The notes beneath the pieces were generated by a model, which worked only from the letters and a program-made list of their open reading frames with translations, made no database searches and was not told where the DNA came from. From contig NZ_FTPD01000034.1 of assembly GCF_900156895.1 (NCBI RefSeq), positions 1 to 64,000 of the forward strand: DNA of 64,000 bases, read 5' to 3'. Numbering within the stretch: the stretch's first letter is position 1; each line of letters opens with the position of its first letter. Both the position numbers and the translations under genes were made by a program. This document shows positions 43,923 to 56,390 of this stretch, in pieces. The DNA comes from Mesorhizobium prunaredense. Its GTDB lineage: Bacteria > Pseudomonadota > Alphaproteobacteria > Rhizobiales > Rhizobiaceae.

Positions 43923-45314
43923 TCACGTCCTTCCAGACAAACGGTCCGCCCACCATGGGGTCGGATCGACGGGTTTTCCATCCTTGCGGAACTCAACATA
44001 GAGTTCCGGCGTGGCATTTCCATTCTTCGATGCCGAGGTGCTCGCCACCCGGGCCTCTCCCATCGCGCCGACCGGCTCTCCTGCGAGCACCGACTGGCCA
44101 GACGCGACGCTGATTCTGCTCATCCCCGCGAGAACGACATGATAGCCGTCACCTGCGTTCAGGATCAAGAGTTGACCATAAGAGCGAAAAGGTCCCGCAT
44201 AAAGTACATTTCCGTCCGCCGGCGCGGTGACGATGGCTCCCGATTGTGTCGCAACCATGTCACCGAGCATCACTGCGCCGTTACCGTCGCTGGCCCCGAA
44301 CCGCCGCTTGATCTTGCCGGTGACGGGCAACGCGATCTGCCCCCGAAGCGCCGAAAACGGCGCCGCGGCGGTGAGCCGGTTGGCTTCCGGCACCGGCAGG
44401 GCCGCCAGTTCCGTCTGTTCCAGGGCCTTCTGTGCCGGAGCCGTCTGCGCCGGGGCCTTGTCGGCGCCCGCTGCCTTCTGCTTCGCGGCTTTCTGCTCGG
44501 CGGCCTTCTGCTCGGCTGCCTTCGCCGCGTCCGCGGCCTTGCGGGCCTTGTCGGCCTCGAGCGAGGCGATCAGTTCCTTCAGGCTGCCGGCCTTGGCCGC
44601 CAGTGCTGCGGATCGCTGCTTTTCCGCCGCCAGTGCCGTTTGCGTCTCGGCCTCGAGCTTCTGCTTGGCTTCGAGCAGCATGCCGAGCCGCTTCTTTTCC
44701 GCCGTCTGCTCGGCGACTGCCGCCGTCAGCCGCGCCCGCTCCGCCTCGATCGAGGCCGTCACGCGTGACTGCTCCTTGAGCTCCGCCAGCAATATCTCGG
44801 TCTGCTGGCGCAGCTCCGGCACCACGGCGCCGAGCAGGATGGCGCTGCGCACCGACGACAGCGCGTCCTCCGGCTTGACCAGGATGGCCGGCGGCGGATT
44901 GAGCCCCATGCGCTGCAGCGCGGCCAGCACCTCGGCCAGAACGTCGCGTCTGGCAGCCAGCGAGGCGCGGATTTTCTGCTCGTCGCCCTTAAGCCCTTCC
45001 AGCTTGGCACCGATGTCCTCGATGTCCTGGCCGAGCTTCTGCTCGGTCATCGCCGACTGGATCAGCGCCGCGGTGATCGAGGCATGGTCCTTCTTGACCG
45101 TCGCCATGTCGGCGGCGAGCTTGGCCAGCCGCTCCGACGACAGTGTGATCTCCTGCGATATCCGTTCGTATTCGACGCGGCTCTGGTCCGGGTCAGGCGC
45201 CATGTCGAGCCTGCTCTGCGCCCGCGCGGCACCGAGCGACAGCATAAGCACCGCCGCTGCCAAGCCGCAGCCTGCGCGCCAAACGCCCGTTCGCGATTTC
45301 CAACCTTCAGCCAT
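43923..45314 (-). CDS. EnvC-like murein hydrolase activator
   Basis: The 463-residue protein has a signal peptide, a long coiled coil (about residues 40-290, Ala/Glu/Lys-rich, including the repeated EQKAAEQKAAKQKAA) and a C-terminal LytM/M23 domain from about 330. In that domain the usual metal histidines are not conserved (GYHVVLAGMSRI rather than HxH). It is therefore a non-catalytic activator of amidases at septation, as in EnvC. It is coupled to ctpA by one base. Confidence 0.92.
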   Translation of the reverse strand: MAEGWKSRTGVWRAGCGLAAAVLMLSLGAARAQSRLDMAPDPDQSRVEYERISQEITLSSERLAKLAADMATVKKDHASITAALIQSAMTEQKLGQDIEDIGAKLEGLKGDEQKIRASLAARRDVLAEVLAALQRMGLNPPPAILVKPEDALSSVRSAILLGAVVPELRQQTEILLAELKEQSRVTASIEAERARLTAAVAEQTAEKKRLGMLLEAKQKLEAETQTALAAEKQRSAALAAKAGSLKELIASLEADKARKAADAAKAAEQKAAEQKAAKQKAAGADKAPAQTAPAQKALEQTELAALPVPEANRLTAAAPFSALRGQIALPVTGKIKRRFGASDGNGAVMLGDMVATQSGAIVTAPADGNVLYAGPFRSYGQLLILNAGDGYHVVLAGMSRISVASGQSVLAGEPVGAMGEARVASTSASKNGNATPELYVEFRKDGKPVDPTPWWADRLSGRT

Positions 45315-49575: not shown

Positions 49576-49744
49576 CCCCCCTCTGTCCTGCCCTCTTTGC
49601 CAAAACTTGGCATCTCCCCCTCAAGGGGGGAGATCGGCGGCTTCACCCCTGGCGCCCCTACTGCGACGCCGGAGGTTGGCGAAAGTCTATGCGACATCCA
49701 ATCTCCCCCCTTGAGGGGGAGATGTCCGGCAGGACAGAGGGGGG
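49576..49744. repeat. REPIN-like composite palindromic repeat, family B copy 3
   Basis: The same outer ends (CCCCCCTCTGTCCTGCC and its inverse) occur in the proA/nadD spacer. The left arm is altered: CTCTTTGCCAAAACTTGGC replaces GGAC, which adds a small TGCC/GGCA hairpin. The right arm is canonical. The interior has GGAGGTTGGCGAAAGTC, the inverse of the conserved core of copies 1 and 2. Confidence 0.85.
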
Positions 49745-49783: not shown

Positions 49784-51070
49784 TCAAGGCCTCACCTGTC
49801 CCGTCCCGCGCACGCGGTACTTGAACGAGGTCAGTTGCTCGACACCGACCGGGCCGCGCGCATGCATCTTGCCGGTGGCGATGCCGATCTCGGCGCCCAT
49901 GCCGAATTCGCCGCCATCGGCAAATTGCGTCGAGGCATTGTGCAGAAGGATCGCCGAATCGATCTCGTTGAAGAACCGTTCGACGGCGTCGGCATCCTCG
50001 GCGACGATCGCCTCGGTGTGGTGCGAGGAAAAAGTCTCGATGTGTTCGATCGCACCGGCAACGCCATCGACCAGTTTTACCGCGATGATGGCATCGAGAT
50101 ATTCGCTCACCCAGTCGGCGTCGGTCGCAGGCTGGGCGTCGGCAAAGACTTTCAGCACCTCGGCATCGGCGTGGATTTCGCACCCTGCCGCGCGCAACGC
50201 CCCGAGGATCGGCACCAGATGGGTGGCGGCAACAGCGCGGTCGACCAGCAGCGTCTCGGCCGCGCCGCAGACGCCGGTGCGCCGCATCTTGGCGTTGACG
50301 GCGATCCTGGCCGCCATGTCGAGATCAGCCGAGCGGTCGATGTAGAGATGACAGATGCCTTCGAGATGAGCAAACACCGGCACCCGCGCCTCGTTCTGGA
50401 CGCGTTCGACCAGGTTCTTGCCGCCGCGCGGAATGATGACGTCGATATTGCCGGAAAGTCCTTTCAGCATCTCGCCGACGGCGGCGCGGTCGGCGGTCAG
50501 CACCAGCTGAATGGCATCCTGCGGCAAATTGGCCGCTTTCAGCCCTTCGACCAGGCAAGCATGGATCGCCGCCGAGGAGTTGAGCGAATCCGAGCCGCCG
50601 CGCAGGATCACCGGATTGCCGGCTTTGAGGCACAGCGCACCGGCATCGGCCGTCACGTTCGGCCGGCTTTCGTAGATGACGCCGACAACGCCGAGCGGCG
50701 TGCGCACGCGCTCGATATGCAGGCCGTTCGGCCGGTCCCATGCGGCAATGACATCGCCGACCGGATCGCGCAGCCCGGCGATTTCACTGATGCCGTCGGC
50801 CATGGCACGGATGCGCGCCGTATCAAGCTTCAGCCGGTCCATGAAAGAAGCCGAAAGCCCCGACTGCTCGCCATTTTTGATGTCGATGGCGTTGGCGTCG
50901 AGAATATCCTGCTCGTGGTGAAGGATCGCCTGCGCCATACCGATCAACGCGGCGTGCTTGCGCTCGGCTGTGGCGACGGCCAGCGGTCGGGCGGCGGCCC
51001 TGGCGCGGCGGCCGATGTCGGCCATCGTTGCTGCGGTATCGTCCCGGGATTTTTCATGCAGCTTCAGCAT
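49784..51070 (-). CDS. proA: Gamma-glutamyl phosphate reductase
   Basis: The 428-residue enzyme makes glutamate semialdehyde in proline synthesis. Catalytic cysteine is in [36 protein letters not shown] and [16 protein letters not shown] are NADPH-domain signatures. Start codon is three bases after the proB stop, so both are translated from one message. Length is normal. The end is close to a family B repeat. Confidence 0.96.
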
Positions 51071-51073
51071 GGC

Positions 51074-52309
51074 TTACCCTTCGCTGGTTAGTTGGTCGCC
51101 GGCCTGTACTTGGTCGCCGGCCCCTACTTGGTCACTGGCCCGTACTTGGTCACTGGCCCGTACTTGGTCACTGGCCCGTACTTGGTCACTGGAATGGCTC
51201 ACCACAAGGTCGTCGCGGTGGATCATCGCCGATCGCGCTTCATAGCCGAGCACCGTCTCGATCTCGGCTGTTTTCAAGCCAGCGATCCTTACGGCATCGG
51301 CGGCATCATAGGCAACCAGTCCGCGCGCGATCTCGCGGCCTTCGGGCGACAGGATCGCCACCGTGTCGCCGCGCGAGAAATTGCCGCTGACCAGCTTGAC
51401 GCCGGCCGGCAGCAGCGATTTGCCCGACAGCAGCGCGCCGATGGCGCCGGCGTCGACTGTCAGCCGGCCTGCCGGTTCGAGCTGCCCGGCGATCCAGGTC
51501 TTGTAGCCCTTGACCGGATTGGCGCTCGGCCGGAAGAACGTCGCCCGCTCGCCACGCTCGATCGCCAGCAGCGGCGACAGCCGCGTGCCTGATGTGATGA
51601 TCATGGCAGTGCCGGCGGCGGTGGCGATCTTGCCGGCGTCGAGCTTGGTGCGCATGCCGCCGCGTGAAAACTCCGAAGCAGCCGCACCCGCCATCGCCTC
51701 GATGTCGGGAGTAATGCGGTCGACGACAGCAACGAACCTGGCATGCTGGTCGCGCGCCGGCGGCGCCGTGTAGAGCCCGTCAATGTCGGAGAGCAGCACC
51801 AAAAGGTCCGCGCCCATCATCGTCGCCACCCGCGCCGCCAGCCGGTCATTGTCGCCATAGCGGATTTCGGAAGTCGCCACCGTGTCGTTCTCGTTGATGA
51901 CCGGTACCGCCTTCATCTTGAGCAGCGTCGAGATCGTCGCGCGCGCATTGAGATAGCGGCGGCGCTCTTCGGTGTCGCCGAGCGTCAGCAGGATCTGGCC
52001 CGATTTCAGGCCGCCCTTGCCGAGCGCATCCGACCAGGCGCCGGCCAGCGCAATCTGCCCGACCGCGGCCGCCGCCTGGCTTTCCTCGAGCTTCAGCGCC
52101 CGCTTGCCGAGGCCCAAAATGGTGCGGCCAAGCGCGATGGCGCCGGACGACACGACGAGGATCTCGGCGCCATTCTCGGCCAGCACTGAAATGTCGTCGG
52201 CAAGCGAGGCCAGCCAGTCGCGCTTCAGGCCCGCGGTGCGGTCGACAAGCAGCGCCGAGCCGATCTTGACGGTGATGCGCCGGTATTTTTTCAGCGACTG
52301 CGCGGCCAT
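51074..52309 (-). CDS. proB: Glutamate 5-kinase, with repeat-encoded C-terminal tail
   Basis: The 411-residue enzyme phosphorylates glutamate as the first step to proline. The amino-acid kinase domain (about 1-260) has [21 protein letters not shown] and [13 protein letters not shown] domain follows (about 280-370, [20 protein letters not shown]). The protein should end near residue 372, after IHRDDLVV. Instead a further 38 residues consist of SDQVRA-type hexapeptides from six 18-base units. The catalytic part is intact. It precedes proA in an operon, two bases after obgE. Confidence 0.95.
51090..51197 (-). repeat. Six tandem 18-base repeats in the 3' end of proB
   Basis: Units of the form ACTTGGTCACTGGCCCGT (plus strand) repeat six times without gaps. 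Units 3-5 (51126-51179) are identical; the outer ones have diverged. They encode SDQVRA, GDQVQA and related hexapeptides in frame. The stop follows 5 codons after the last unit. Confidence 0.95.
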
Positions 52310-55691: not shown

Positions 55692-56390
55692 TTACTTCTT
55701 CGCCAAATCTTTGGCCTGCTCGCGCCAGTCCATGATCTGGTCGGCGCTGAACGGCATATGCTCGTCGATCTTGGCGATATCCTTGTCCGACAGCTTGGCG
55801 ATCTGGGCGAAGGTCGTGATGCCCTGCTCGTTCAACTGGCCGGCCGCAACCGGGCCGATGCCCTTGATCACGGTCAGATCGTCCGGCTCGCCCTTCGGCG
55901 CCTTGAACAGCGGCGCGGCGGTTTCGGTTGCCTTGGCTTCCTTCTTCGGCGCAGCCTCTGGCTTGGCTTCGGGCTTCGGCGCGGCTTCAGCCTTCGCCTC
56001 GGCCTTTGCAGCAACTTCGGCCTTCGCCTCGCTCTTCGCTTCGGCCTTGGCCGCGGCCTTCTTCGCCGGCTTGGCACCACCCAGCAGGATCTCGGCGATC
56101 CGCACGGTGGTCAACAACTGGCGATGGCCGATCTTGCGGCGCGAATTCTGCCGGCGGCGCTTCTTGAAAGCGATGACGGTGCGGTTCTTGCCCTGTTCGA
56201 CGACTTCGGCGGTGACCAAAGCGCCGTCGACGAACGGCGCGCCGAACGTCACATTCTCGCCCTCGCCATGCGCGAGCACGTGGCCGATCTCGACGATATC
56301 GCCGACCTGGCCTTCGACTTTTTCGATCTTCAGGAGATCGTTGGCGGCGACGCGATACTGCTTGCCGCCCGTTTTGATGACTGCGAACAT
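55692..56390 (-). CDS. rplU: 50S ribosomal protein L21 with C-terminal helix-hairpin-helix extension
   Basis: Residues 1-104 are a normal L21 ([36 protein letters not shown]). Bacterial L21 normally ends there. Here a 60-residue Lys/Ala/Glu-rich linker (repeats such as [19 protein letters not shown]) and a domain of about 65 residues follow. That domain starts [20 protein letters not shown] and resembles helix-hairpin-helix/DUF4332-type nucleic-acid-binding folds. Such fusions are known as 'L21 / unknown domain fusion' proteins in rhizobia. ATG 56390 matches the L21 start; the frame to 56471 is rejected. Confidence 0.95.

Follow-up and report, generated by a model that had tools for sequence, protein, structure and literature searches.

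How does the gene of a biosynthetic enzyme come to end in a run of near-identical hexapeptide-coding units, and do these units serve the enzyme? The question is raised by proB of Mesorhizobium prunaredense, which was analysed within a window comprising positions 1 to 64,000 of contig NZ_FTPD01000034.1, part of a 7.0-Mb genome assembled in 82 contigs. Both domains expected of a glutamate 5-kinase (ProB), AA_kinase and PUA, are present in the product of the gene, and proB, proA and, by a reading of its open reading frame, obgE lie on the minus strand of the window. At the 3′ end of proB, positions 51083–51190 (minus strand) comprise five clear 18-bp units and a degenerate sixth, encoding repeats of the form [S/G]DQV[R/G/Q]A C-terminal of the PUA domain (Table 1). 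The original prediction, made from the DNA itself, had placed six units at 51090–51197 and had described three central ones as identical. The array lies slightly shifted from that interval, five of the six units are good, and three are indeed identical; these are units 1–3, nearest the PUA domain.

Table 1. Features of the proB–proA region in the window
Feature	Position	Strand	Evidence or remark
proA	49784..51070	-	ORF and position in relatives; start codon 3 nt past proB stop
proB end and proA start, GAA GGG TAA GCC ATG	51068..51082	-	
proB, glutamate 5-kinase, 411 aa	51074..52309	-	ORF, Pfam, PDB relatives 4q1t and 2j5t
Unit 6, degenerate, GDQLTS, GGCGACCAACTAACCAGC	51083..51100	-	followed by GAA GGG TAA
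Unit 5, GDQVQA, GGC...CAG variant	51101..51118	-	
Unit 4, SDQVGA, GGG variant of unit	51119..51136	-	
Units 1-3, SDQVRA, identical, AGTGACCAAGTACGGGCC	51173-51190, 51155-51172, 51137-51154	-	block not in near relative L012
ProB amino-acid kinase domain	residues 11-239		PF00696, 9.6e-37 (Pfam)
ProB PUA domain	residues 281-354		PF01472, 7.4e-22 (Pfam); repeat tail C-terminal of PUA

The 18-letter repeat is real by sequence inspection, TRF and shuffling. TRF reported a period of 18, 5.6 copies, 93% matches and a score of 160 at 51092–51192, the strongest array of the 64-kb window, in which the second-best tandem array scored 74. Identity at lag 18 was 0.94 over 83 nt, the window maximum for all lags from 5 to 50; dinucleotide shuffling of the array, repeated 2000 times, gave at most 0.557 (lags 5–40). 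As predicted, the frame is kept, being open through the array with no stop, and the repeats follow the PUA domain, PF01472 lying upstream of them. Minisatellite units are roughly 10–60 bp long, and the array fits this class by its period of 18, its preserved frame and a copy number that differs among related genomes. Weaker tandem arrays occur in the window at 44414–44523 (15-bp) and 55927–56061 (18/24/30-bp periods). The strand opposite the proB array is open as well, in a 166-codon ORF with TGPYLV repeats (51092–51592, plus strand) that is probably a mirror of the 18-nt period.

The repeats form the tail of the protein. Two PUA-bearing glutamate 5-kinases of known structure, PDB 4q1t and 2j5t (the latter presumably E. 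coli ProB), align with ProB of the window over residues 9–370 and 11–369, having the kinase and PUA domains in common with it; their chains end at the start of the tail and are without the repeat, whereas ProB of the window continues into it. The AlphaFold model of this ProB (70 rows) is middling, with a mean pLDDT of 73.7 and values down to 51–68 in places within the PUA part. Block means for tail residues 371–411 were 28–39, which would be in keeping with disorder, and the modelled tail has no strand and only low-confidence helix. A left-handed beta-helix built of hexapeptide repeats was rejected on the basis of this strandless model.

The number of units was compared across 146 Mesorhizobium genomes, one per species. 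ProB was found in all 146 and all proB regions were read, with in-frame units counted at no more than 4 of 13 mismatches. No unit was present in 46 genomes, one in 44, two in 27, three in 13, four in 3, five in 8, six in 4 and eight in 1, many of the genomes being drafts in which arrays may be miscounted. Of the 46 unit-less species, 22 are among the 77 core rows and 16 are outlying rows; the remaining 8 belong to the 9 rows in which proB is followed by an inserted gene, the ninth of which (L056) was counted as having one unit through a chance match. Measured from HRDDLVV, the distance to the first unit is identical in 97 of the 100 unit-bearing rows and one codon longer in the other 3. Rather than the same number and sequence being held over distant species, 0–8 units were found over the 146 genomes, and proB is thus, between species, the variable-number locus that had been proposed. 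An effect of the array on ProB assembly or on feedback by proline, also raised in the original prediction, is unsupported, because 46 of 146 species (22 of 77 core rows) do without a unit, the solved chains align only to the start of the tail, and the pLDDT of the tail is about 28–39.

The minisatellite was found only in Mesorhizobium by the searches made here. A two-unit DNA pattern (at most 2 mismatches) gave 54 matches in 28 of the 146 genomes, all at proB, and its reversed control gave 0; the repeat peptide matched only proB, in 25 of these genomes, and gave 2 matches in 394 genomes drawn from the family, both in Mesorhizobium. The unit was not seen in 33 loci read outside the 146 and taken from the best 80 named loci, 45 of which have exact DNA in common with a genome of the 146. 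A single-unit pattern with one mismatch was uninformative in the window's own genome, its 25 + 29 matches falling below the 50 + 47 of the reversed control. Dispersed mobile coding repeats, such as the Rickettsia palindromic elements, have copies in several unrelated genes, whereas the Mesorhizobium unit occurs in proB only; a dispersed mobile repeat family was rejected, since both the two-unit pattern and the repeat peptide were found only at proB. No report of a repeat at proB was found among the papers listed from the open-licence full text of PMC.

Turnover of the array has been rapid. On a proB tree built with the tail left out, at least 51 changes of unit number were counted, a figure that recombination could inflate and that depends on a rapidly built tree of proB alone, in which 50 of 143 inner branches are open. 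In 300 shuffles of the labels on this tree the mean was 81 changes and the minimum 74, and hence unit number appears to be inherited but fast-changing. Near relatives of the window differ accordingly: L012 (proB 98.0% identical) has 2 units versus 6, the three identical CGG units being absent; L010 (97.0%) has 6 units, including four CGG units that start with GGT and not AGT; L020 (97.8%) and L029 (96.2%) have 1 and 2 units. The 3′ ends of the arrays also differ among these five, which points to more than one event or to recombination. With at least 51 changes on the tree and a range of 0–8 units, the recent expansion that had been read from the identical units is upheld between species.

The arrays are also polar. 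In the 16 with four or more units, mean mismatches to the consensus (of 15) were 0.69, 0.62, 0.88, 2.56 and 3.54 counting from the PUA side, and the last unit averaged 4.44 of 15, the consensus having been picked after the arrays were seen, which favours the uniform side. Identical neighbouring units accounted for 15 of 92 pairs at pair positions 1–3 and 0 of 20 further along, in 50 arrays of two or more units from which 6 irregular ones had been dropped. Growth at the PUA side and decay beside proA may be inferred from these sequences.

On its other side the array abuts proA. Many relatives read AGC GGA GGA TGA GCC ATG at this junction, and the last proB codons, encoding the seemingly conserved ProB end SGG, look like the ribosome-binding site of proA. 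Of the 137 rows in which proA was located within 900 nt, 83 have a gap of 2–3 nt between proB stop and proA start. This spacing is seen in 69 of 77 core rows; in a separate clade of 48 rows, it is seen in 5 of the 44 that are without the inserted gene. Distances to proA modulo 3 were distributed 67/5/5 in the core versus 22/13/9 in the separate clade, and each of the 16 arrays with at least four units had a spacing of 3. One unit was found in 34 of the 44 separate-clade rows, two in 9 and three in 1; two or more occurred in 4 of the 5 tightly spaced rows of this clade versus 6 of the 39 loosely spaced ones, and these 6 indicate that small arrays do not require coupling. Outside the clade, L028 and L064 carry arrays of 2–3 units without tight spacing, and the 8 of 77 core rows that are loosely spaced comprise L028 (a MAG), which has a 1-nt shift in its array, and seven that end 13–18 nt before proA. 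Several separate-clade rows bear a decayed further copy behind the proB stop. The sequences fit a frame filter that would favour whole-codon changes where proB and proA are coupled, an argument that is partly circular and draws on few independent events.

Termination-reinitiation gene pairs, as described in PMC6728339 and PMC10666635, resemble proB–proA in having stop and start within a few nucleotides of one another (3 nt in the window). Extracts of the second source report that in E. coli and Haloferax reinitiation declines sharply as the distance grows, and that a gap of 2 nt already reduced it by 5, 20 and 70% in three gene pairs of E. coli (PMC10666635). In the commonest published stop–start arrangement, according to the same extracts, the two genes overlap by 4 or 1 nt (PMC10666635), in contrast to the 2–3 nt gap at proB–proA, where coupling is deduced from spacing only.

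The junction is occupied by other elements in some species. Eight species scattered on the proB tree (L255–L262) have a convergent gene of about 160 amino acids between proB and proA, with a signal-peptide-like start (AADYCDDK.EPGESPDGKAM) and a frame that looks broken in L258 and L259; the L255 protein had no Pfam match. ProB of these species mostly has a short tail, for example SGTAD or GGAAD, and repeated insertion or exchange of junction alleles is possible. A foreign proA in the gene-inserted species was rejected, the start of proA being 72–79% identical to that of the window in the eight versus 76–100 in 115 other rows. A different insert of about 0.45 kb occupies the same junction, after proB, in L263 (G140); it has an ORF that gave the impression of resembling alkyltransferase-like proteins, and the 71 aa of it that were searched matched no Pfam family. 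In nine rows (L109, L111, L112, L117, L118, L120, L124, L132 and L135) the proB stop is immediately followed by a palindrome-like element, AGCAATTCC[A/G]GGAAAAG..., which has the look of an intergenic repeat of the dispersed kind. The gap following proA in the window (49600–49740) contains two CTCCCCC...TTGAGGGGGAG-like palindromes, which resemble rhizobial intergenic mosaic repeats.

Selection on the unit was assessed in rows chosen by clade or tail length; an earlier test had picked rows by unit match, favouring conservation there, and significance was later left only for the aspartate. All 44 rows of the separate clade retain this residue (0 amino-acid versus 6 synonymous changes, P 2e-5); in the 56 other rows it underwent 5 amino-acid versus 5 silent changes (P 0.015), these being two of six uncorrected tests in which parsimony ties were broken toward silent, slightly favouring constraint. 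At the glutamine and valine, amino-acid changes were not significantly depleted (P 0.21–0.77), the fourth codon and the S/G codon changed at a neutral pace or above in the 56 rows, and third positions of the GAC and CAA codons differ between species. The dN/dS of the ProB core in the same rows was 0.06–0.07. Only the aspartate of the unit appears to be under convincing protein-level constraint, and this constraint would be weak.

The array is a genuine coding minisatellite (VNTR), which these searches place only at the proB 3′ end of some Mesorhizobium species, and it is probably a tolerated product of slippage or unequal exchange in a disordered tail, whole-codon changes in which keep the spacing to proA. 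An 18-nt piece coding for GDQVLA or similar, in an unstructured tail after the PUA domain, would have been duplicated, and replication slippage or unequal exchange would then have added and removed units, chiefly at the PUA side. Gains would be tolerated given a unit of six codons and a tail that is presumably disordered and, in some species, absent; an in-frame change would leave the proB stop 2–3 nt before the proA start, such that translation of proA could stay coupled. The units on the proA side would be older and decaying, and a weak constraint at the protein level would retain the aspartate. Two outlying species (L137 and L142) carry, at this same position, a duplication of an 18-nt piece of unrelated sequence (GVQGGA/GAQGGE type), which suggests that the proB tail tolerates duplication repeatedly.

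Of the alternatives, purely neutral slippage debris with the frame as its sole constraint is a somewhat doubtful one that still has to be taken seriously. The variable number, the many species without a unit and near-neutral rates at several positions agree with it, and to this extent the suggestion in the original prediction that the repeat may be neutral stands; however, in two sets of rows the aspartate has changed less often than expected under neutrality. The same aspartate deficit, again in both sets, could be read as the mark of a short binding motif, D-Q-V-x-A, in which case the array would be a tail for multivalent docking, for instance to ProA, with unit number tuning avidity; docking to ProA would assist in handing over the labile glutamyl phosphate. 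The gene proB lies next to proA, and subunits of a complex are more often encoded by genes that lie close together, as stated in extracts of PMC10666635. This reading is nonetheless improbable, given that glutamine and valine show no significant deficit, that the fourth codon is free to vary in the 56 rows and that the unit-less species number 46 of 146. An elaborated form, in which the tail is a tunable docking arm, each D-Q-V-x-A unit binding ProA or another partner, slippage setting the hold between kinase and reductase, and lineages adjusting proline flux by unit number, is rated as very improbable.

It is equally hard to credit that the array acts in the mRNA or through slow codons, a run of rare GTA and CAA codons before proA pausing ribosomes and setting the ProA:ProB ratio. 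The array does repeat both codons, which make up 8 of 201 Val and 9 of 61 Gln codons, respectively, in seven chosen genes of the window; however, the folding energy of the array RNA is ordinary (z −0.67, with 51 of 200 shuffles folding as well), no Rfam family was found at gathering score, the GAC and CAA codons differ between species at their third positions, and the array readily changes in copy number. An RNA element, promoter or terminator was rejected as being without support. Finally, although drafts can miscount arrays of about 100 bp, an assembly artefact is scarcely credible, since numbers vary also in assemblies of 1–5 contigs (5, 5, 5, 4, 3 and 2 units in G073, G103, G029, G037, G008 and G086, respectively) and there are point differences between units.

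Read as a tolerated coding minisatellite, the proB array belongs to a kind of object, the intragenic minisatellite, that is already well known. Intragenic tandem repeats and VNTRs in bacterial coding genes have been described, for example, in Legionella pneumophila (extracts of PMC2639597) and are treated in a review (PMC3899988); like those of L. pneumophila in the former extracts, the proB array consists of in-frame units in a coding gene, the number of which varies among related bacteria. It is unlike Legionella-type VNTRs in that the gene is that of a biosynthetic enzyme, its 3′ end abuts the next gene, and the variation seen is between species and not strains. If variation among strains were confirmed, the array could become a typing marker for Mesorhizobium. 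If the tail does dock ProA, it would bear on the transfer of the labile glutamyl phosphate in bacteria without a fused P5CS. With 0–8 units in one enzyme tail, Mesorhizobium offers a natural series of how coding minisatellites may arise, grow one-sidedly and be filtered by the translation start of a neighbouring gene.
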